Source: Pseudotabrizicola formosa (GTDB taxonomy: Bacteria > Pseudomonadota > Alphaproteobacteria > Rhodobacterales > Rhodobacteraceae). From it: a stretch of DNA of 64,000 nt. The notes beneath the pieces were generated by a model. That model ran no database searches, had not been told where the DNA came from, and was given only the letters and a program-made list of their open reading frames with translations. Positions 18,844-29,791 of the stretch are shown piece after piece (positions within the stretch are counted from its first letter, which is position 1; the number at the start of each line of letters is the position of its first letter). Location of the stretch: contig NZ_PJOM01000002.1 in NCBI RefSeq assembly GCF_002900965.1, positions 744,001 through 808,000 on the forward strand. The letters run 5' to 3'. The position numbers were made by a program, and so were the translations under genes.

Positions 18844-19563
18844 ATGACCGTGCATATCCTGCCCCGATCCGACACCCTAGGGTCCGAGCCGACGCGCAGC
18901 CTGCACTCTGCTTTGGTGGTGGATGACCATCCGCTGTTCTGCGATGCCCTGTCGATGACCTTGAAGGCGGTGGCGGGAATCGGGCGGATCGAGACCGCTG
19001 ACCGGTTGGACAGTGCGATTGCCCGGCTGGAGCAAGGCCCGATGCCGGATGTGGTGGTGCTGGACCTGAACCTGCCGGATGTCGATGGCTTGGACGGGTT
19101 GATCCGGTTGAAATCGGTGGTGGGGCTGGTGCCGGTGGTGGTGGTGTCGTCGCTGGCTGACAACCGGGTGATCAGCGCGGCGCTGCGGGCGGGGGCCTCG
19201 GGGTTTGTGCCCAAACACAGCCACCGCGACGTGTTCCGCGCCGCGTTTGACGCGATCCGGCGGGGCCATGCCTATCATCCCGACGGCTATGTTCCGCAAC
19301 ATGATCCGAAAGCCCCGGCCAGCCAGCGCGAAGATGCCGTGGCCCGGCTGGCGCTGCTGACCCGGCAGCAGGCGCGCATCCTGCAGCTGATCTGCGAGGG
19401 CAAGCTGAACAAGCAGATCGCCTTTGACCTGACGATAGCCGAAACCACGGTCAAGGCGCATGTGACCGCGATCATGCGCAAGCTGGGGGTGCAAAGCCGG
19501 ACGCAGGCGGTGCTGATCGCGCGCGGCGCAAGCTTTGACAGCCTGATGCCGGAAGGCGATTGA
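18844..19563 (+). CDS. LuxR/NarL family response regulator
   Basis: The 239-residue protein has a receiver domain (about 22-140) with the acidic pair D27-D28, phosphoacceptor D74 (VVLDLNLPD) and the conserved lysine in FVPKHS. The C-terminal LuxR-type HTH (about 172-232) includes LTRQQARILQLICEGKLNKQIAFDL and IAETTVKAHVTAIMRKLGV. It lies 72 bases before a FIST sensor and its coupled hybrid kinase, both on the same strand. That makes it the likely DNA-binding output of the module; this rests on position. The gene is preceded by a G-rich tract. Confidence 0.9.
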   Translation: MTVHILPRSDTLGSEPTRSLHSALVVDDHPLFCDALSMTLKAVAGIGRIETADRLDSAIARLEQGPMPDVVVLDLNLPDVDGLDGLIRLKSVVGLVPVVVVSSLADNRVISAALRAGASGFVPKHSHRDVFRAAFDAIRRGHAYHPDGYVPQHDPKAPASQREDAVARLALLTRQQARILQLICEGKLNKQIAFDLTIAETTVKAHVTAIMRKLGVQSRTQAVLIARGASFDSLMPEGD

Positions 19564-19635
19564 TCGGGCCGGGCGGATCGAACCGCTTGCCGAAGCCGGA
19601 GGCACGCCCTAGCCTTTGGGCAGGGGGGATTGGCG

Positions 19636-20799
19636 ATGCAGGAAATGCGTGGCTTGACAGCAGGCGGTGCGGCAGACGTCCTGATCAGCGCTTGTGTGCC
19701 CGCCACTGCCCCTGATGCGGCAGGGCAGTTGGCGCAGGCGCTTGGCGCGGGGCCGTTTTCGCGCATCGTGGTGTTCGTGTCGCCCGAGGCTGATCTGGCG
19801 CGGTTCTGTGCCGATCTGGACCTGCACTTTCCGCCCGGTCTGGTGATCGGCTGCACCACTGCCGGAGAGATTTCGCATCTGGGCTATACCGAGGGCGATA
19901 TTGTCGCAGTGGGCTTTCCGGCCGCCTATTTCTGCACCGACTGCCTGTTGGTGCCGGATCTTGCGCGGATCAGCCCGCAAGAGCTGATCGGGCAGCTGAT
20001 CCGCGCCCGCACCGGGTTGCAGCAGGACCGGCCCGGGTGGGATCATGAATTCGCGTTCATGATGGTGGACGGATTGTCGACGGCCGAGGATGATCTGGCC
20101 GCCGCTGTCGCCTCGGGTCTTGGCCCGGTGCCGCTGTTTGGCGGGTCAGCCGCCGATGGCTTGCGCTTCGGGCGGACCCATGTGATCTGGCAGGGGCAGG
20201 CCATCAGCGCTGCGGCGATTGTCATGCTGGTGCGCAGCAGGTGCCGCGCGCGGGTGTTCAACCTTGACCATCTGGTGCCGACCGACCGGCGTATGGTGGT
20301 CACGCAGGCCGATCCGGCGCGGCGCATCGTGCATCAGATCAACGCCGAACCGGCGGCGCAGGAATATGCGCGCCTGCTGGGCAAAGATCCTGCGCAGCTG
20401 ACGACCTTTACCTTTGCCGCCCACCCGGTGGTGGTGCGGGTGGGCGGGCGCCACCATGTGCGGGCAATCCAGAAAATGGAAGAGAATGGCGATCTGGTGT
20501 TCTTTTCCGCCATTGACGAGGGGCTGGTCCTGACCCTCGCCGAGCCGCAGGATATGGTGGCGCATCTGGACCGTGAACTTGGCCGCCTGTCCGATCATGG
20601 TGCCCCTGCCGCCATTCTGGCCTGCGACTGCATTCTGCGTCGGATGGAGGCGCTGGAAAAGCAGCATGCGGGCGCGATTTCGAAGGTGTTGCGTGACCGG
20701 AACGTGCTGGGCTTTTCCACCTATGGCGAGCAGTGGAACTCCATGCATGTGAACCACACGATGACCGGGGTGGCGCTCTATCCGCCGGATCCCGCATGA
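19636..20799 (+). CDS. FIST domain sensor protein, NosP-like
   Basis: The 387-residue protein starts at ATG 19636, eight bases after AGGGGG; a TTG six bases upstream is too close to the SD. It has FIST_N (about 30-215, with FPPGLVIGCTTAGEISHLGYTE and FGGSAADGLRFG) and FIST_C (about 225-365, ending NVLGFSTYGEQWNSMHVNHTM). Bacterial FIST proteins adjacent to NahK-type kinases include NosP, a haem protein that senses nitric oxide and controls the kinase. The stop overlaps the kinase start by four bases, the same arrangement as nosP-nahK. Haem binding cannot be shown here, and other FIST proteins may bind other small ligands. Confidence 0.85.
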   Translation: MQEMRGLTAGGAADVLISACVPATAPDAAGQLAQALGAGPFSRIVVFVSPEADLARFCADLDLHFPPGLVIGCTTAGEISHLGYTEGDIVAVGFPAAYFCTDCLLVPDLARISPQELIGQLIRARTGLQQDRPGWDHEFAFMMVDGLSTAEDDLAAAVASGLGPVPLFGGSAADGLRFGRTHVIWQGQAISAAAIVMLVRSRCRARVFNLDHLVPTDRRMVVTQADPARRIVHQINAEPAAQEYARLLGKDPAQLTTFTFAAHPVVVRVGGRHHVRAIQKMEENGDLVFFSAIDEGLVLTLAEPQDMVAHLDRELGRLSDHGAPAAILACDCILRRMEALEKQHAGAISKVLRDRNVLGFSTYGEQWNSMHVNHTMTGVALYPPDPA

Positions 20800-22994
20800 T
20801 TGACACGCTGATCAACCCCGCCGACCCGCCCGAGCGGCAGATGGAAAAGCTGATGACCATCGCGCAGGTGCTGATGCGGCGGGTGGAATCCGATACCGAT
20901 GACAATGGCGCGGCCTATGCCCAGTTTCAGCGCGCCGCGATGCTGGAAGATCAGGTGCGCGACCGCACCCGTGATCTGGAGCGCGCGCTGGACCTGCTCA
21001 ACGAGTCGAATGCCCGTCTGGGAGAGGCCAACCGCCGCGCCGAGGCCGCGCGACAGAACCTCGCCAATGCGATCGAGACGGTGCAAGAGGGATTTGCGCT
21101 GTTTGATGCGGGCGATGTGCTGGTGCTGTGTAATTCACGCTTTGGCATGCATATGGAAGATATCCGCGATGCCCTGCGTCCTGGCCTGACCTTCGAGGCC
21201 TATGTTGACCGGGTCAGCCGGTCGCGCTTTCTGGAACTGCCGGACTTTGAGACCCCGCAGGACTGGGCGATCCGGCGCAAGCGGCGCCATCAAGATAGGC
21301 ATGTGATCTTTAACGTGCGGATGATCCGGGACCGCTGGGTGCAGGTGTCCGAACACCGCACGGCGGATGGCGGCACGGTGATCTTGCAGACCGATGTGAC
21401 CGATATCATCCGGTCCGAACGGCAGGAGCGGGGCAAGCTGCTGGACGATCAGGCCCGGATGATCCGCGCCACGCTGGACCATATCAATCAGGGCGTGTCG
21501 ATCTTTGATGCTCAGGCGCGGCTGGTGGGGTGGAATGCGCGGCTGGGGCAGCTTCTGGCGATTCCGGTGGCGCGGTTCCGGGTGGGGGCCTCCTTTGACT
21601 ATCTGCTGCAGCGGTTTCGGGAAGAGATCACCCTGTCGGACGGGATGACCGATGCCGCTCTGGCGGCTTGGGTCAAGGGGGCCACGGGTCGCCCCCCGCT
21701 GACCTTCGAGGTGCGGCGCGGCGATGATCTGATTCTGGCGGTGTTCGCGCAGGAAATGCCCGACGGCGGTTTTGTGATGAGCTTTACCGATGTCACCACC
21801 GAACGGGCCGCGATCCACGCGCTGAGCCGGGCCAATGAAACGCTTGAGGCGCGCGTGATGGAGCGCACGCTGGAGCTGGAAGATGCGCTGGCCCATGCCG
21901 AGCGCGCCAATGCCAGCCGGTCGCGCTTTGTGGCCGCCGCCAGCCATGATCTGCTGCAACCGCTGTCTGCTGCCAAGCTGTTCATCGCCAGCATCGGCGG
22001 CGAAGGGGTGCCACCCGAAGCGGTAGAGGCGTTGGAAAAGGCGCAGAATGCGCTGGTCTCGGTCGAGGGGATATTGGACGCGCTTCTGGATATCTCCAAG
22101 CTGGAATCGGGGCGCGCGGCGGTATCGGTGGGGCAGGTGGCGCTGCGCCCGATTCTGGCGCAGCTGGCGGCGGAATTTACCGCCATTGCGGCGGCCAAGG
22201 GCTTGCTGCTGACGGTGCGGCTGTCGGACGCGGTGGTGATGACGGACCCGGCCTATCTGCGCCGCATCCTGCAAAACCTGATCGGCAACGCCATCCGCTA
22301 TACCACGAAGGGCCGGGTGGTGGTGGCCGCCCGCCGGCGTGGGGGGATGACAAGGCTGGAGGTCTGGGACACTGGCCTCGGCATTCCGGAGGAGGAACAG
22401 GACAATATTTTCAAAGAGTTCCACCGGCTGAACGCCCGCGCCTCGGCCAGCGAAGGCATGGGTCTGGGGCTGGCGATCGTGGAGCGGGCCTGTGCCCTGC
22501 TGGGGCATCCCCTGGGGCTGTCCTCCCGGCTGGGACGGGGCACCTGTTTCATGCTGCAGCTGCCGTCGGTTACGTCCGCCGAAACCCTGGCGGTGGCGCC
22601 GCCAGCGGTCACCCGTCCCCGGATGCGCCTGCAGGGCAAAATCGGGTTTCTGGTGGAAAACGACCCCGACCTGTGCCGCGCCATGGCGCTTTTGCTGGAA
22701 AAATGGGGGCTGTCGGTGCTGGATGCTGACAGCGGCGAAGCGGCCCTGGCGCTGATTGATGAGCTGGGAATCCTGCCCGATTTCTTTCTGGTCGACCATC
22801 AGCTGGGCGATGGCATGACCGGGGTGGAATTCATCCGCCTCCTGCGTGCGCGGCATGGCGATGTGCCCACCCGTCTGGTTACCGCCAATCGCAGCCTGCA
22901 GGTGCAGGCACTGGCGCAGCGCGACGGGATAGAGGTGCTGATGAAGCCGCTGGATGCCCGCGCGCTGGAGGCGTTTCTGCGCGACCTGCCATAG
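20796..22994 (+). CDS. Hybrid sensor histidine kinase/response regulator, NahK-like
   Basis: The 732-residue soluble hybrid kinase has an N-terminal coiled coil (about 50-90, ERALDLLNESNARLGEANRR) and two PAS-like segments (about 90-205 and 220-345). A second coiled coil leads to HisKA with H384 in the box AAASHDLLQPLSAAKLF, then HATPase_c with DTGLGIPEEEQ and GMGLGLAIV. The C-terminal receiver (about 620-732) has phosphoacceptor D667 (FLVDHQLGDG). No transmembrane segment is present, so signal input probably comes from the FIST partner. The HDLLQP box and layout match NahK/ErcS-type kinases. Start 20796 overlaps the FIST stop. Confidence 0.9.
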   Translation: MIDTLINPADPPERQMEKLMTIAQVLMRRVESDTDDNGAAYAQFQRAAMLEDQVRDRTRDLERALDLLNESNARLGEANRRAEAARQNLANAIETVQEGFALFDAGDVLVLCNSRFGMHMEDIRDALRPGLTFEAYVDRVSRSRFLELPDFETPQDWAIRRKRRHQDRHVIFNVRMIRDRWVQVSEHRTADGGTVILQTDVTDIIRSERQERGKLLDDQARMIRATLDHINQGVSIFDAQARLVGWNARLGQLLAIPVARFRVGASFDYLLQRFREEITLSDGMTDAALAAWVKGATGRPPLTFEVRRGDDLILAVFAQEMPDGGFVMSFTDVTTERAAIHALSRANETLEARVMERTLELEDALAHAERANASRSRFVAAASHDLLQPLSAAKLFIASIGGEGVPPEAVEALEKAQNALVSVEGILDALLDISKLESGRAAVSVGQVALRPILAQLAAEFTAIAAAKGLLLTVRLSDAVVMTDPAYLRRILQNLIGNAIRYTTKGRVVVAARRRGGMTRLEVWDTGLGIPEEEQDNIFKEFHRLNARASASEGMGLGLAIVERACALLGHPLGLSSRLGRGTCFMLQLPSVTSAETLAVAPPAVTRPRMRLQGKIGFLVENDPDLCRAMALLLEKWGLSVLDADSGEAALALIDELGILPDFFLVDHQLGDGMTGVEFIRLLRARHGDVPTRLVTANRSLQVQALAQRDGIEVLMKPLDARALEAFLRDLP

Positions 22995-23075
22995 CGCGCC
23001 GGATATCCTACGACTTATGTTCCATAGCGCCCCGCCCCGTCGCCGCCTAATCTGCCGCCACAGGGAGACTGACCG

Positions 23076-23600
23076 ATGCACATGAGTGATACCCGCGATA
23101 TCCAAGCCCCGCCCTCCGAGGTCTGGGCCGCCATTCTGAACCCCGAGGTGCTCAAGGCCTGTATTCCGGGCTGCACCGAGGTGACCGGCAACCGCGATGA
23201 GGGGTTCGAGGCGGTGGTGACGCAAAAGGTTGGCCCGGTGAAGGCGACCTTCAAGGGCGCGGTCACCCTCTCCGACATCACCGAGGGCGAGGCGGTGACC
23301 ATCTCGGGTGAGGGCAAGGGGGGACCGGCGGGCTTTGCCAAGGGCGGCGCCGTGGTGCGGCTAGAACCGATCCCGGAAGGCACGCGGCTGTCTTATGATG
23401 TCGAGGCCAATGTGGGTGGCAAGCTTGCGCAACTGGGCAGCCGGATCATCGACGGCTTTGCCAAGAAGATGGCGGATGAGTTTTTCAGCCGCTTCCAGAC
23501 CGCCGTGGAAGGCCCTGCCGAACCGGAAACGGCGGAACCCGCCCCCGAAGGCGACGACGAGACACCGAAAAAAGGCTGGTTCAAGCGGCTGATCACCTGA
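23076..23600 (+). CDS. coxG: CoxG-type SRPBCC protein
   Basis: The 174-residue protein has a CoxG/DUF1008 SRPBCC fold (about 5-145), beginning [26 protein letters not shown] and ending in an acidic linker with a short basic-aromatic tail (KKGWFKRL). In carboxydotrophs CoxG helps anchor CO dehydrogenase to the membrane; the tail here is too short for a transmembrane helix. It precedes coxS by 49 bases, so the four genes coxG-S-L-M probably form one operon. GGAGAC precedes the start by 8 bases. Confidence 0.85.
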
Positions 23601-23649: not shown

Positions 23650-24135
23650 ATGACGAATGTCACGATGACCGTGAACGGAAAATCCGTCTCGGCACCGGCA
23701 GAGGGGCGCACCTTGCTGGTGGAGTATCTGCGCACGGGGCTGGGGCTGACCGGCACCCATGTCGGCTGCGATACCAGCCAATGCGGGGCCTGTGTGGTGC
23801 ATGTCGATGGCCGCGCCGTCAAATCCTGCACCGTCTTTGCGATGGATGTCGAAGGGTCGGATGTGCGCACGATCGAGGGCATGGCCAATGCCGATGGCAG
23901 CCTTGGCGTGGTGCAACAGGCGTTTCAGGACCATCACGGGCTGCAATGCGGCTTCTGCACGCCCGGCATGGTGATGACCACCGCAGCCCTGCTGGCGGAA
24001 AATCCGCGCCCCTCAGAGGCCGAGGTACGCCACGGGCTGGAGGGCAATATCTGCCGCTGCACCGGTTACCACAACATCGTCAAAGCCGTGCTGGCCGCGT
24101 CCGGTCAGGACGCAGACGCCATTGCTGCGCAGTAG
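23650..24135 (+). CDS. coxS: Molybdenum hydroxylase small [2Fe-2S] subunit, CoxS-like
   Basis: The 161-residue protein has an N-terminal plant-type [2Fe-2S] domain with [15 protein letters not shown] and a C-terminal helical [2Fe-2S]_2 domain with QCGFCTPGM and GNICRCTGY, so all eight cluster cysteines are present. The start has GGGAGGAAC upstream; a longer frame lacks support. It passes electrons from the molybdenum site of CoxL to the FAD of CoxM. The gene order S-L-M is that of form II (putative) CO dehydrogenases; form I uses M-S-L. Confidence 0.9.
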
Positions 24136-24144
24136 GGGGATCAG

Positions 24145-26523
24145 ATGCCAAAAGATACCGGAATAGGCGCATCCACCAAGCGCCGCGAAGATGTGCGGTT
24201 CCTGACGGGCCGCGGGGTCTATACCGATGACCTGACGATGTTTGGCCAGGCCCATGCCGTGATGGTGCGCTCCACCGTGGCGCATGGCCGGATCGTGTCG
24301 ATTGACACGGCAGCGGTCGAGGCGATGCCCGGCGTGCTGGCGGTGTTTACCGGCGAGGATTTCAAGGATGTCGGCGGCAACCCGGCGGGTTGGCTGATCA
24401 ACAGCCGCGACGGGACACCCATGCGCGAACCCAAGCGCCCGGTGCTGGCGCATGGCAAGGTGCGCCATGTCGGTGACGCCTATGCCGCCGTGATTGCCGA
24501 GTCCTATGCGCAGGCCAAGGATGCGGCACAGGTGCTGTCGGATGCGACGGTGATCGAGGAACTGCCCGCCATCATCGACATGAAGGCGGCGGCGGCCGAT
24601 GCCAGCAACCGCGTGCATGACGAAATCCCCGACAACATCTGCTTTGACTGGGGCTGGATCGAAGACAACCGCGCCGCCGTGGATGAGGCAATGAAATCCG
24701 CGCCCCATGTGGTGACGCTGGAGCTGACCAACAACCGGCTTGTCCCCAATGCGATGGAACCACGCGCCAGCATCGGCGAGTATTTCCCCGGCACGGGTGA
24801 CTATAAGCTCACCACCACCAGCCAGAACCCGCATCTGACCCGGCTGCTGGTCTGCGCCTTTGTGATGGGCATTCCGGAAAACAAGCTTCAGGTCGTGGCC
24901 CCCGATGTGGGCGGCGGGTTTGGCTCCAAGATCTATCACTACGGTGAGGAGGCGCTGGTTCTGGCCGCCGCCAAACGCCTTGGCCGCCCGGTGCGCTGGA
25001 CAGCAGAGCGGACGGAAAGTTTTCTGTCCGACGCGCATGGCCGCGACCATGTGACCAAGATCGAATTGGGCTGCACCAAGCAAGGCGATATTCTTGCGAT
25101 CCGCACGGAAACCTACGCAAATGTAGGTGCCTATCTGTCGAACTTCTCAACCGCCACGCCGACCTTCCTGCATGGCACACTGATGGCGGGGCCTTACAAG
25201 GTGCCGCATGTCTATGTGAACGTGAAGACGGTTTTCACCAACACCGCCCCGGTAGATGCCTATCGCGGGGCCGGGCGGCCTGAGGCGACCTATAGCATCG
25301 AGCGTGTGGTGGATAAAATGTGCCGCGAGTTGAATCTCGACCCGTTCGAGGTGCGTCGTCGCAATCTGCTGACGCCCGATCAGTTCCCCTATACCACGCC
25401 GGTCGGGCTGGTCTATGACACCGGCAATTATCAGGCCACGCTGGACAAGGCGGTTGAACTTGCCGATGTCGCCGGGTTTGAGGCACGCCGGGCTGAGAGC
25501 GCCAGGCGCGGCAAGCTGCGCGGCATGGGGCTGTCGACCTGGATCGAGGCTTGCGGTATTGCGCCCTCGCATCTGGTGGGGGTGCTGGGCGCGCGGGTGG
25601 GGCTTTATGACGCTGCCACCGTGCGGGTGAATGCCACCGGCACCATTTCGGTGATGACCGGGGCGCACAGCCACGGGCAGGGGCATGAAACCGTCTTCCC
25701 GCAGATCGTGGCGGAAAAGCTGGGGATTGATGCCTCGTCAGTCGAAATTGTGCATGGCGACACCGCCAAGATCCCGTTCGGGATGGGGTCTTATGGCTCG
25801 CGCTCTCTGGCGGTTGCGGGGTCGGCCATGGACCGCGCCATCGACAAGATCATCGCCAAGGGCAAGAAGATCGCAGCCCATATGCTGGAGGCGGCCGAAG
25901 GCGACATCACCTTTGCGGATGGCAAGTTTTCGGTGGCGGGCACCGACAAGGCCAAGACCTTCGGCGAGATCGCCTTTTCGGCTTACGTCCCGCACAATTA
26001 CCCGCTGGAAACGCTGGAACCGGGTCTGGAGGAAACCGCCTTCTATGACCCTGCCAACTTCACCTATCCCGCAGGCGCCTATATCTGCGAGGTCGAGGTG
26101 GATGAGGGCACCGGCAAGGTTGATGTGGTCTCCTTCACCTGCGCCGATGATTTCGGCAATGTGATGAACCCGATGATCGTGGAGGGCCAGGTGCATGGCG
26201 GCGTGGGGCAGGGGATTGGTCAGGCGGTGCTGGAAAGCACGTCCTATGACGAAAACGGCCAGCTGCTGACCGGATCTTACATGGATTACGCGATGCCGCG
26301 TGCCGATGATGTGCCGTTTTACACGGTGGATCATTCTTGTGCCACGCCCTGCACCCATAATCCGTTGGGGGTGAAGGGTTGCGGCGAGGCCGGGGCCATC
26401 GGCTCGCCTCCGGCGGTGGTGAATGCGGTGATCGATGCTTTGCACCGGGGTGGCCATACCCATGTGTCACATATTGATATGCCCGTCTCACCCAACCGGG
26501 TGTGGCAGGCGATGAACGCGTAA
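24145..26523 (+). CDS. coxL: Molybdenum hydroxylase large subunit, form II CoxL-like
   Basis: The 792-residue molybdopterin cytosine dinucleotide enzyme belongs to the xanthine oxidase family. It has the Mo-cofactor motif GGGFGSK and the active-site loop AYRGAGR at 372-378. That loop is the form II signature; true high-affinity form I enzymes carry AYxCSFR with the cysteine for the Cu-Mo centre. The catalytic glutamate is E748 in GCGEAGAIG. Hence the Cu-binding cysteine is absent and CO oxidation is doubtful. Form II enzymes have been linked to CO use in some bacteria but may act on aldehydes or N-heterocycles. It lies 9 bases after coxS. Confidence 0.92.
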   Translation: MPKDTGIGASTKRREDVRFLTGRGVYTDDLTMFGQAHAVMVRSTVAHGRIVSIDTAAVEAMPGVLAVFTGEDFKDVGGNPAGWLINSRDGTPMREPKRPVLAHGKVRHVGDAYAAVIAESYAQAKDAAQVLSDATVIEELPAIIDMKAAAADASNRVHDEIPDNICFDWGWIEDNRAAVDEAMKSAPHVVTLELTNNRLVPNAMEPRASIGEYFPGTGDYKLTTTSQNPHLTRLLVCAFVMGIPENKLQVVAPDVGGGFGSKIYHYGEEALVLAAAKRLGRPVRWTAERTESFLSDAHGRDHVTKIELGCTKQGDILAIRTETYANVGAYLSNFSTATPTFLHGTLMAGPYKVPHVYVNVKTVFTNTAPVDAYRGAGRPEATYSIERVVDKMCRELNLDPFEVRRRNLLTPDQFPYTTPVGLVYDTGNYQATLDKAVELADVAGFEARRAESARRGKLRGMGLSTWIEACGIAPSHLVGVLGARVGLYDAATVRVNATGTISVMTGAHSHGQGHETVFPQIVAEKLGIDASSVEIVHGDTAKIPFGMGSYGSRSLAVAGSAMDRAIDKIIAKGKKIAAHMLEAAEGDITFADGKFSVAGTDKAKTFGEIAFSAYVPHNYPLETLEPGLEETAFYDPANFTYPAGAYICEVEVDEGTGKVDVVSFTCADDFGNVMNPMIVEGQVHGGVGQGIGQAVLESTSYDENGQLLTGSYMDYAMPRADDVPFYTVDHSCATPCTHNPLGVKGCGEAGAIGSPPAVVNAVIDALHRGGHTHVSHIDMPVSPNRVWQAMNA

Positions 26524-26535
26524 GGAGGGGTCACC

Positions 26536-27324
26536 ATGCATAACTTTGAATTCGTCAAACCCTCGTCCATCGCCGATGCTGTCGCGGCCATGTCGACCGA
26601 GGGCGCACAGCCGCTGTCAGGCGGGCAGACCCTGCTGCCGACGATGAAACAGCGGCTGGCCGCCCCCGAGGTGCTGGTCAGCCTGACCGGCATTGCCGAG
26701 TTGCAGGGCGTCTGCATGGGCGAGGGCGGCCTGCACATCGGTGCCGCCACGCCGCATGCGGTGGTGGCGCGCGAGGCGCTCGCGCACTACCCCGCGCTCG
26801 CCAGCCTGGCGGGCGGCATCGGCGATCCGGCGGTGCGCAACCGGGGGACCATCGGCGGGTCGGTCGCCAACAATGACCCGGCGGCCTGCTATCCGGCGGC
26901 GGTGCTGGCCTCGGGGGCGACGGTGGTGACAGACCGCCGCCGGATCGCGGCGGAGGATTACTTTCAGGGCATGTTCACCACGGCGCTCGAAGAAGGGGAG
27001 TTCATCACGCAGGTGATCTTCCCGATCCCGCAAGCGGCGGCCTATGTGAAGTTCAACCAGCCCGCCAGCCGCTTTGCCTTGACGGCAGTGTTCGTCGCAA
27101 AGTTTGCCGATGGCGTGCGGGTGGCGGTGACCGGGGCATCTAACAACGGCGTCTTCCGCTGGGAAGAGGCCGAGGCGGCACTGTCGGCGGATTTCGCGGC
27201 GGGGGCGATTGCCGGGCTGACAGTGCCCTCTGATGACATGATCAGCGATCTGCACGGGTCGGCGGCTTACCGCGCCAATCTGGTCAAGGTGCTGACCGGG
27301 CGCGCGGTGACAGCGGCACGCTGA
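26536..27324 (+). CDS. coxM: Molybdenum hydroxylase FAD-binding medium subunit, CoxM-like
   Basis: The 262-residue subunit binds FAD through SGGQTLLP (near residue 32) and TIGGSVANNDPAA (near 108), the two flavin motifs of the CoxM/XdhB family. It ends with a CO_deh_flav_C domain (about 165-262). It starts 12 bases after coxL with AAGGAGGGG as SD. It takes electrons from CoxS and hands them to an acceptor that is not encoded here. The accessory genes coxD, coxE and coxF are not in the window. Confidence 0.9.
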   Translation: MHNFEFVKPSSIADAVAAMSTEGAQPLSGGQTLLPTMKQRLAAPEVLVSLTGIAELQGVCMGEGGLHIGAATPHAVVAREALAHYPALASLAGGIGDPAVRNRGTIGGSVANNDPAACYPAAVLASGATVVTDRRRIAAEDYFQGMFTTALEEGEFITQVIFPIPQAAAYVKFNQPASRFALTAVFVAKFADGVRVAVTGASNNGVFRWEEAEAALSADFAAGAIAGLTVPSDDMISDLHGSAAYRANLVKVLTGRAVTAAR

Positions 27325-27393: not shown

Positions 27394-29154
27394 TCAGGCC
27401 GAAACCTGTTCGCGCAGGATTGCAGCGGTCATCGAGATCATCAGATAGATCCCGGCAAAGATCAGCAGGGCAACCATCGTGTTTTCAAACGCCCGCGGAT
27501 AGGTCGCCTCATCGGGCGGGACCGGGCTGACCGAGACCGACAGATAGCGGACCTGGCGGTTGGCATCGGTGCGCGCGGTTTCCATTGATTGCAGCGATTG
27601 CGACAGCAGCAGTTGCCGGGTCTGCACATCGGCCTGCGCCACCAGCAGTTCCGACTGCACCTGTGCCAGTGACTTGCCGCCAGCCACCCCTTGCGTCAGG
27701 CGCGACCGCAGGGTGGCAATCTCGGCGTCCAGCGTGCTGATCCGGCGCAGCAAAGGCTCCATCCGGGCGGCGTTCGGGGTGGCGTTGGATTGCATCTGCG
27801 CCAGGCTCAGCCGGTCCTGGCTGAGCTGGGTTTCCAACTGGCCGATCTGGGTGGTGATCAGCGACACCTCCACCTCGGACGACAGCACCTGAAACTGTTC
27901 CTGCAGATCCACAACCTTGCGCTGCGCGGTCAGCATGGCCTCTTCGGCCAGTTCATAAGCCTCGAACGCGCCCTGCATTTGATCGGCGCGCAGGCGTTGG
28001 GTCAGATGATCAACCTGCTCTTCGGCATAGCCGATCAGGGCCTGCGAGAAATCGGCCGACACCTGTGGATCTGCGGCGATCACCTCCATCTTGATGATGC
28101 CCTCGGTCGGATCATAGGCGATTTTCACATTGCGCTGATAGACCTTGTAGGCCGCCTCGCGGGTGGCATCGGGGGCCAGCCTTTGGATCGGATCAATCTG
28201 GTCCTGCGCGAAATGGGCGATAAAGCTGTGATCGGCGTCCAGACGCATCATCGCGTCGCGGGATTGCAGATAGCCCTGCACTGCGATGGAATCCTGCGAT
28301 GTGGCGAATTGCGTGCCCGAAAGCAGCCCGCCCATGCCCTGCGCCCCCGCCGGATCGGCCTGCTGAATCACGAATTCGGCTTTGGTGGCAAACAGCGGCG
28401 TTGCGACAACATAGTAATACCAGCCTGCCAACAGCGTGGGCAGTCCGACGAAAAAGAACAACCGCGCCATGAGCAGGGCAGACTTGCGGCGGCGGCGCCT
28501 GGCCAGATCCTGCTGGATGCGCTGGATTTCCGACAGATGCGATTCCTCGGCGCGCACTTCGGTCGACGGCACCTTGATCGGCTTGATGGTCTGCGGCAGT
28601 TGCACGCCATCCCCCCGGGGCCCGACCGTCAGCGCGCGCGACCCAGGCTCACCTTGGCCAGCCAAGGGCAGGTCGGCCCCTTCGGCGCTGATCATTTGCA
28701 TGAAGGTTGATTTCTGGAACGGATCAACACCGGCGGCGCGCAACAGGCGCACGGCGTCAAAATCCGAGGTGGCGGGCAGCCCGTATTTTTGTGCCATGCG
28801 CCGCGCCATGCGCAGCTGGCGCCCCGTCAGCCCCTCTTTGCGGATCTGGTCAATATCGTTCGGGTTCGGCTGTTCGGCACCTGCCTGGGCCGGCGCAGGG
28901 TGGCGCGGGGCAGGGGACTCCCCCCCCGCATCCATCATGGCATCGACCTGGTTCCCTGCGGTGGGAAACGGGTCTGCGCCAAAGCCGTCTTCAGGTGCCG
29001 GTGCCGACACCGGGCGTGGCGGCACGCTACCAGCAGGCACCGCGCGCGGCCGGGGCGGCACAGACACTGGGCCTGACACTGGGCCAGACACTGAAGCAGA
29101 CACCGGATCCGGGCGGCGCAGGTTGTAGCGTTTAACCTTGAGCTTGATAGTCAT
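27394..29154 (-). CDS. Capsule export inner-membrane protein, KpsE/CtrB-like, with long cytoplasmic N-terminal extension
   Basis: The 586-residue polysaccharide copolymerase-type protein is about 200 residues longer than KpsE (about 380). The extension (about 1-220) is Pro/Ser/Val-rich with short repeats (SGPVSGPVSVPPRPR) and a helical stretch (KEGLTGRQLRMARRMAQKYG). A first transmembrane helix (about 230-250, FFFVGLPTLLAGWYYYVV) follows, then a periplasmic coiled coil (about 390-520), and a C-terminal helix (NTMVALLIFAGIYLMISMTA). It would couple the ABC transporter to the periplasmic export path. The start overlaps the ATPase stop by 23 bases. Confidence 0.85.
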   Translation of the reverse strand: MTIKLKVKRYNLRRPDPVSASVSGPVSGPVSVPPRPRAVPAGSVPPRPVSAPAPEDGFGADPFPTAGNQVDAMMDAGGESPAPRHPAPAQAGAEQPNPNDIDQIRKEGLTGRQLRMARRMAQKYGLPATSDFDAVRLLRAAGVDPFQKSTFMQMISAEGADLPLAGQGEPGSRALTVGPRGDGVQLPQTIKPIKVPSTEVRAEESHLSEIQRIQQDLARRRRRKSALLMARLFFFVGLPTLLAGWYYYVVATPLFATKAEFVIQQADPAGAQGMGGLLSGTQFATSQDSIAVQGYLQSRDAMMRLDADHSFIAHFAQDQIDPIQRLAPDATREAAYKVYQRNVKIAYDPTEGIIKMEVIAADPQVSADFSQALIGYAEEQVDHLTQRLRADQMQGAFEAYELAEEAMLTAQRKVVDLQEQFQVLSSEVEVSLITTQIGQLETQLSQDRLSLAQMQSNATPNAARMEPLLRRISTLDAEIATLRSRLTQGVAGGKSLAQVQSELLVAQADVQTRQLLLSQSLQSMETARTDANRQVRYLSVSVSPVPPDEATYPRAFENTMVALLIFAGIYLMISMTAAILREQVSA

Positions 29155-29791
29155 AAAGCTGCTTCGCCTCTTCCAGAGTGTCGAATGTATAAAGCTGGCC
29201 GTTGCGCAGCACAGCCGCCTGTTTGCAGAATTTTTCCAGCGTCTGCGCCTGATGGCTGACGATCACCACGGTGGCCTGTTGCAGCCGCTCACGCAGGATA
29301 CGCCCGGCCTTGCGGTTGAAATCCACATCGGTGGTGGCAGGCATGCCTTCGTCGATCAGGTAGATGTCGAATTCCAGCGCCAGCATCAGCGAAAACGAGA
29401 ACCGCGCCCGCATGCCCTGGCTATAGGTGCCGACCGGCATGTCGAAATATTCGGCAATGCCGCAGAGCCAGCGGCAGAAGCTTTCGACATAATCCGGATC
29501 AAGCCCGTAAAGCCGGGCCACATAGCGGCTGTTTTCGGTGGCCGTGTGCTTGTTGACCACACCCCCCATGAACCCCAGCGGAAAGGAAATGCGGCTGGTG
29601 CGGGTGACCCGGCCCTCATCAGGTTTTTCCAGCCCGGCCATCATGTTGATGATGGTGGTCTTTCCCGCGCCATTGGGGGCAAGAATGCCCAGCGACTGGC
29701 CAAGATCAATGCGGAAGGACGCCTGATCCAGAATGATCTTGCGCTGCTTCCCGGTCCAGAATGACTTTGACACGCCCTCGAACTCGATCAC
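29132..29791 (-). CDS. Capsular polysaccharide ABC transporter ATP-binding protein, KpsT-like
   Basis: The 219-residue ATPase has Walker A GPNGAGKTT-like APNGAGKTT, signature SQGMRARFSFSLM, Walker B FDIYLIDE and switch histidine VSHQAQTL. Its short length and SRISFPLGFMGGV segment match the KpsT/BexA group that exports group 2 capsule. The matching permease (KpsM) is not next to it: 170 bases of apparently non-coding DNA follow upstream. The permease and other export parts must be elsewhere, or the pair serves another polysaccharide. Confidence 0.88.
   Translation of the reverse strand: MIEFEGVSKSFWTGKQRKIILDQASFRIDLGQSLGILAPNGAGKTTIINMMAGLEKPDEGRVTRTSRISFPLGFMGGVVNKHTATENSRYVARLYGLDPDYVESFCRWLCGIAEYFDMPVGTYSQGMRARFSFSLMLALEFDIYLIDEGMPATTDVDFNRKAGRILRERLQQATVVIVSHQAQTLEKFCKQAAVLRNGQLYTFDTLEEAKQLYDYQAQG

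Follow-up and report, generated by a model that had tools for sequence, protein, structure and literature searches.

The closest described counterparts of the locus reported here belong to C1 metabolism. According to the passages of PMC4776306 that treat them, afdR-afdT-afdS, rfdR-rfdT-rfdS and flhR-orf2-flhS share a gene order of regulator, middle open reading frame (ORF) and kinase (R-T-S), and AfdRS and RfdRS seemingly lack conserved cysteines, their mode of formaldehyde sensing being given there as unknown. Formaldehyde is reported, in the portion of PMC8879981 dealing with it, to activate FlhRS. A second counterpart is the nosP-nahK pair of Pseudomonas, which encodes a FIST protein and a soluble hybrid kinase and, as PMC12997753 describes it in the section concerned, sits with agmR/erbR inside the pyrroloquinoline quinone (PQQ) alcohol-oxidation (ped) cluster. 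Here we analyze a 64,000-nucleotide stretch of Pseudotabrizicola formosa (contig NZ_PJOM01000002.1, positions 744,001 to 808,000), hereafter the window, in which genes for a NarL/LuxR-type response regulator, a FIST protein and a hybrid histidine kinase are followed by coxG-S-L-M, a carbon monoxide (CO) dehydrogenase-like operon of form II. The triad is probably a relay of the AfdRTS/RfdRTS/FlhR-orf2-FlhS type that responds to an alcohol- or aldehyde-oxidation signal and now drives the form II cox genes. What sequence comparison does establish is the family of the proteins, the gene order, the linkage to XoxF/PQQ and to form II cox, the absence of XoxF here and the presence of an XoxF-type motif before coxG.

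An earlier note on this DNA had described a LuxR regulator upstream of a FIST protein and a hybrid kinase, and the ends and Pfam domains of the three ORFs bear this out (Table 1). As it had also seen, the FIST stop and the kinase start overlap in an ATGA at 20796-20799; its wording "translationally fused in layout" holds for this ORF overlap, with no protein fusion. The kinase carries the HDLLQP box that the note had pointed to (His = residue 384; receiver Asp = residue 667), and its top 19-residue hydropathy mean of 1.45 makes a membrane segment unlikely, again in line with the note. Among 141 related FIST loci compared, 133 were sorted into two FIST clusters, and 125 of these keep the order regulator, FIST, kinase; the FIST-kinase junction is ATGA in 47, TGATG in 10 and of another form in 76.

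Table 1. Features of the triad, the predicted operator and the adjoining cox operon (window coordinates)
Feature	Coordinates	Strand	Details
NarL/LuxR-type response regulator (R)	18844..19563	+	Pfam Response_reg, GerE; receiver Asp74; helix-turn-helix intact
FIST protein (T), divergent NosP relative	19636..20799	+	Pfam FIST, FIST_C; Cys73, Cys332, Glu365, His371
Soluble hybrid histidine kinase (S)	20796..22994	+	two PAS_7 stretches, HisKA (His384), HATPase_c, Response_reg (Asp667)
Predicted operator TACGACTTATGTTCCATA	23009..23026	+	49 bp before coxG start; XoxF-promoter matrix score 20.2
coxG (SRPBCC-type protein)	23076..23600	+	Pfam COXG
coxS, [2Fe-2S] subunit	23650..24135	+	Pfam Fer2_2, Fer2
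coxL, molybdopterin subunit, form II type	24145..26523	+	AYRGAGR motif
coxM, FAD subunit	26536..27324	+	Pfam FAD_binding_5

When scored against the curated NCBIfam models, all three proteins stay under the cut-offs. The FIST protein reaches 377 bits on NosP (NF041558; cut-off 450), the kinase 408 bits on NahK (cut-off 1500) and 347 on near_NosP_CTERM (cut-off 400; NF041831 / NF041832 for the two models), and the regulator 159 bits on ErdR (cut-off 390). By sequence, the FIST protein and the kinase are divergent relatives of NosP-NahK, so that the NosP-NahK module of the earlier note stands as kinship by family models, with no score above a curated threshold. Of genomes from the window's own family, 296 were searched: 132 have a NosP-like FIST match and none passes the NosP cut-off, and in a sample of the phylum 54 of 219 genomes match the NosP model at E to 1e-60, with 15 exceeding the cut-off. 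The likeness to the Pseudomonas pair lies in a co-cistronic FIST protein and soluble hybrid kinase with a LuxR regulator nearby, as far as that pair is described in the part of PMC12997753 concerned; unlike there, the LuxR gene comes first and directly upstream, and cox adjoins. Going by published descriptions, the triad resembles AfdRTS and RfdRTS of Rhodobacter sphaeroides and FlhR-orf2-FlhS of Paracoccus denitrificans in the order of regulator, middle ORF and kinase and in a C1 context, which is seen in the triad's relatives. It differs from them in that its genome has no XoxF or PQQ-dependent alcohol dehydrogenase (PQQ-ADH) over cut-off and in that it adjoins a form II cox operon. The R-T-S relay is of a known kind, in an unusual setting. 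On P. pantotrophus pPAN1, one relative is encoded downstream of a gene for a PQQ methanol/ethanol dehydrogenase, and a FIST homologue in record CP049031 carries the name "GfdT protein". In a plasmid collection, FIST relatives were found on 219 records, including 76 from Sinorhizobium and 53 from Pantoea.

The census of the 296 genomes set 123 with a kept FIST against 173 without a kept FIST place, as raw counts uncorrected for kinship; 9 of the 132 FIST genomes, with weak matches only, and 1 of 62 PQQ-ADH genomes (G104) were dropped. FIST is present in 61 of 61 kept XoxF genomes, and none of the 173 genomes that lack a kept FIST has XoxF (Fisher 5e-29); G104, with a PQQ-ADH at 420 bits and no FIST, was dropped before the XoxF count. 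NirK or NirS occurs in 40/123 FIST genomes against 42/173 others (p 0.15), and NirS alone is mildly enriched with FIST (27/123 vs 20/173, p 0.02). The FIST gene is associated with XoxF and PQQ genes, and not with the nitrite reductases taken together. Clustering of the neighbors of the 141 FIST loci places XoxF in 45 (representative TIGR03075, 768 bits), PQQ-linked ABC transporter parts in 26 to 40 (TIGR03861, 03863, 03864 and 03866; one representative each) and cox genes in 27 to 31. The larger FIST cluster (100 loci, the window included) has 42 loci with XoxF and 30 with coxL. The smaller one, which we take to be the mxa type, has 33 loci, with glutathione (GSH)-formaldehyde dehydrogenase in 19, a SoxYZ-like protein in 26, a metallohydrolase in 24 and cox in none. 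Searches of the window's own genome gave no match to NirK or NirS and neither XoxF nor PQQ-ADH over cut-off; the genome encodes a GSH-formaldehyde dehydrogenase.

XoxF lies within 8 kb of FIST in 42 of the 141 loci. The linkage of coxL was taken from 150 listed coxL places, which makes the cox linkage counts lower bounds: coxL is within 8 kb of at least 26 FIST loci, 12 of them co-directional and downstream at about +5.1 kb (the window type) and at least 14 divergent and upstream at about -3.8 kb (one at -6.1). At least 18 more FIST loci have XoxF at about -2.4 kb (one at -4.2) and coxL at -10 to -18 kb, with XoxF in between. All 12 window-type loci fall inside one clade of 22, together with 4 divergent loci, the other 10 divergent loci being scattered among XoxF loci; a quick tree, in which 60 of 144 inner branches are weak, requires a minimum of 14 changes of cox adjacency for the listed coxL. 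On a plasmid of Ruegeria sp. AD91A the row runs coxL-S-G, cytochrome, PQQ genes, XoxF, regulator, FIST, kinase, and in Tabrizicola thermarum (L013) and two metagenome genomes (L007, L016) XoxF precedes the triad and coxG follows about 6 kb after it. If XoxF and the intervening genes were lost from such a cluster, the arrangement of the window would remain. XoxF appears to have been lost in the window's lineage from the XoxF-triad-cox cluster of its relatives, a direction of change that we infer. Other triads, in L020 (Rubellimicrobium) and L021-L025 (Roseovarius), have no coxG in the fetched stretch; XoxF is just upstream of the triad in L020, and in L021 the triad's neighbor is an ORF resembling GroEL.

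The window's operator candidate was found with XoxF promoters. Among words counted in 250-bp upstream stretches, TACGACC stood out; it is present before xoxF in 36/42 loci and before coxG in 9/12 window-type and 4/14 divergent loci, with 4/141 among coding controls. A matrix was trained on 42 XoxF promoters of relatives only, with the 95th percentile of the 141 coding stretches as threshold, and its sole hit above 11 in the 64-kb window is the site at 23009-23026. Over this threshold are 12/12 coxG promoters of the window type, 12/14 of the divergent type, where the coxG stretch doubles as the regulator promoter, and 6/7 of "other" loci, as well as 13/18 cox promoters with XoxF between; coxG held in an XoxF locus gives 0/1 and the coding controls 7/141. 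Triad-linked cox promoters pass in 37 of 44 cases vs 0 of 20 from triad-free genomes (Fisher 5e-11), and scores of -3.1 and -0.1 are obtained for two triad-free operons with an upstream coxG, whose CoxL share 87% and 83% identity with that of the window. In a set of 14 named-record loci with coxG directly after the kinase, which may overlap the census set (L005 and L018 at least), all 14 are over threshold, L017 barely (7.7). T. thermarum L013 has sites before both xoxF (25.1) and coxG (13.8), and the coxG promoter of L016 passes with 17.5. Similarity across 11 window-type loci is higher in the motif (0.89 over 20 columns, 0.84 over the 14 non-anchor columns) than in its flanks (0.50).

The best sites resemble a 7-2-7 inverted repeat (TACGACC-AA-GGTC...), and the window site agrees with 9 of the 14 positions of the full repeat. 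Inverted repeats of this spacing are known for NarL-type regulators. Loci linked to XoxF and those linked to cox share AETTVKAHVTAIMRKL as the consensus of the regulator's helix segment; the second FIST group has a different one, and its regulator promoters carry the motif in 0/32 cases. A pattern derived from the motif, written after the window site was seen, has the operator as its sole match in the window (0.02 expected) and, with up to one mismatch allowed, no other match in the genome. Triad-free cox operons (L269-L288) mostly lack an upstream coxG, and several have GTTCTCA ... CGTGCTTAACT in common upstream, perhaps for another regulator.

Several observations weigh against a relay that acts on cox through this motif. 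A backward control pattern also gives one match in the genome, which is why the genome-wide uniqueness of the derived pattern says little. The coxG promoter of L007 fails (5.1) and that of Ruegeria barely passes (8.2). Among the 18 XoxF-between cox promoters, the strict hexamer TACGAC is found in 2 and the median score is 9.25; their clusters also supplied 18 of the 42 training promoters. When the triad is elsewhere in the genome, 9 of 19 cox promoters pass, with 7/13 for a triad of the large clade and 2/6 for genomes with only the second type; with XoxF near and the triad elsewhere, 0/3 do. The motif stands before the regulator itself in 2/12 window-type loci, the window scoring 4.9 there. 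The comparison with triad-free operons is confounded in that 18 of the 20 have no coxG in the 2.6 kb upstream of coxL. CoxL relatives (E to 1e-200) occur in 120/173 triad-free genomes, so cox does not need the triad relay everywhere, and for 73 of the 141 FIST loci no XoxF and no listed coxL is found at a distance of 8 kb or less, although 7 of these 73 hold coxG. The locus counts are also not independent, because the loci are related, as the 12 window-type loci in one clade of 22 illustrate. Finally, an rfdT mutant is reported to have no effect on adhI induction, an afdT mutant going unmentioned in that passage (PMC4776306).

The operon itself starts 81 bp past the kinase end on the same strand. 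Form II is marked by the AYRGAGR motif and the S-L-M order in the part of PMC13203968 that defines it, and the window has both. Unlike the described form II coxSLM, the window operon is led by coxG and preceded by an XoxF-type motif. The role of form II "CO dehydrogenase" is called unclear, and CO consumption often absent in isolates, in the relevant passages of PMC13203968 and PMC6794299. CoxL scores 629 of 991 bits on CO dehydrogenase TIGR02416 and 634 of 790 on glyceraldehyde dehydrogenase alpha. A form I CO dehydrogenase is ruled out by AYRGAGR in place of AYXCSFR and by the 629 bits, below the 991 cut-off of TIGR02416. CoxL relatives (E to 1e-200) are present in 226 of the 296 genomes, the form II motif having been checked in the window's CoxL only. 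Past the operon, at 27394-29791, a 586-residue ORF without Pfam match lies beside an ABC ATPase ORF, a pair kept downstream of cox in L001-L006.

The relay we envisage would begin with the FIST protein, which would perceive an alcohol- or aldehyde-oxidation signal, formaldehyde or a close relative, and would set the activity of the soluble kinase. Phosphate would pass to the LuxR regulator, directly or through a separate histidine phosphotransfer (Hpt) protein; the genome has seven Hpt-like places, three of them within short ORFs, and the phosphorelay to the LuxR regulator predicted earlier is in our judgment a reasonable one. The regulator would then bind 23009-23026 and switch coxGSLM on. 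In the relatives the same relay would serve xoxF, and in the window's lineage the loss of xoxF would have left cox as the target, with form II Cox then being part of C1 or aldehyde oxidation and not of CO respiration. The "full three-gene set" of the earlier note is complete as a triad and missed the adjoining coxG-S-L-M with its predicted operator, the probable output.

How the FIST protein would sense is suggested by its predicted fold. The model (predicted local distance difference test, pLDDT, 78.5) has as its best solved counterpart the FIST domain of human FBXO22 (Z 18.4 over 246 residues, root-mean-square deviation 3.2), with a chorismatase fold well below it (11.6). Cys326 of FBXO22 forms a reversible hemithioacetal with drug aldehydes, assisted by Glu362, according to the parts of PMC13316043 and PMC11208438 that address it. 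In 171 aligned relatives of the window protein, Cys332 and Glu365 are kept in all 171, Cys73 in 169 and His371 in 170. The Cys/Glu pair is 33 residues apart in the window protein and 36 in FBXO22; unlike it, the window protein has no ubiquitin-ligase context and is only 11% identical, with an uncertain residue register. The version of the model that was cut at residue 335 stops at FBXO22 327-328 in three entries, placing Cys332 at about 324-325, in a low-confidence end 1-2 residues off 326. Because the last strand of this cut model did not form, the register holds to within about 2 residues only. Searching solved structures by sequence, with the FIST protein and profiles A1 and A2 as queries, returned no FIST structure; pseudoazurin chains at E 1 and above were the sole hits, and we take them as chance. 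Sequence therefore offers no way of matching Cys332 to FBXO22. We tentatively suggest, by analogy and as a possibility on the doubtful side, that FIST proteins of this kind are aldehyde sensors in which formaldehyde or another aldehyde is bound as a reversible hemithioacetal by the invariant Cys332, activated by the invariant Glu365, and that the form II Cox controlled here is an aldehyde-oxidizing enzyme. The same cysteine is present in 15/15 proteins over the NosP cut-off, which counts against this suggestion: because that family is described as haem/nitric oxide (NO) sensors, the conserved cysteine may serve haem. If the suggestion is true, AfdRS/RfdRS-type systems would perceive formaldehyde via the overlooked middle gene T.

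The earlier note had named NO, or another small ligand, as the signal. On the NO account the FIST protein binds haem and NO alters the kinase, with a nitrosative-stress or lifestyle response as the output of the LuxR regulator, as in NosP-NahK. The window proteins are related to the NosP family, members of which, from P. aeruginosa and other species, are described as haem/NO proteins; His212 and His371 are kept in the window's FIST protein, and the mild enrichment of NirS points the same way. We nevertheless consider NO unlikely as the ligand. The association is with XoxF and PQQ genes and not with NirK and NirS together, the window's genome has neither reductase, the gene order is that of the formaldehyde regulators, the partner is a DNA-binding regulator beside cox and not a cyclic di-GMP enzyme, and Asn replaces the candidate ligand His212 in 15 of 171 relatives. 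The note's alternative of another small ligand stands.

A further reading is that cox was left beside the relay upon deletion of XoxF as a passive relic, with the relay controlling another target, for example the GSH-formaldehyde dehydrogenase elsewhere, or nothing. The cluster history suggests such a deletion, and the triad-free genomes with CoxL relatives fit it. What makes this account quite improbable is the motif before coxG, present in 12/12 window-type loci and more alike than its flanks in the 11 compared. That the triad is a CO or redox/haem sensor, in which the FIST haem binds CO and the relay turns on a true CO dehydrogenase, is very improbable: the adjoining operon is CO-dehydrogenase-like and haem-binding FIST proteins are described, but CoxL is of form II (AYRGAGR, S-L-M), whose isolates often show no CO consumption in the passages cited above, and the relay's relatives go with XoxF, a methanol-type enzyme.

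These comparisons support the notion that an alcohol/aldehyde-type relay has most likely been rewired to form II cox. The rewiring has good comparative support; the ligand, the phosphotransfer and the DNA binding we infer. Our search of the literature for a link between FIST, XoxF and cox found no report. Together, the regulator, the predicted operator and the metabolic context would offer a testable inducer and substrate class for form II Cox, and the FIST gene may be a concrete candidate for the formaldehyde sensing of AfdRS/RfdRS.

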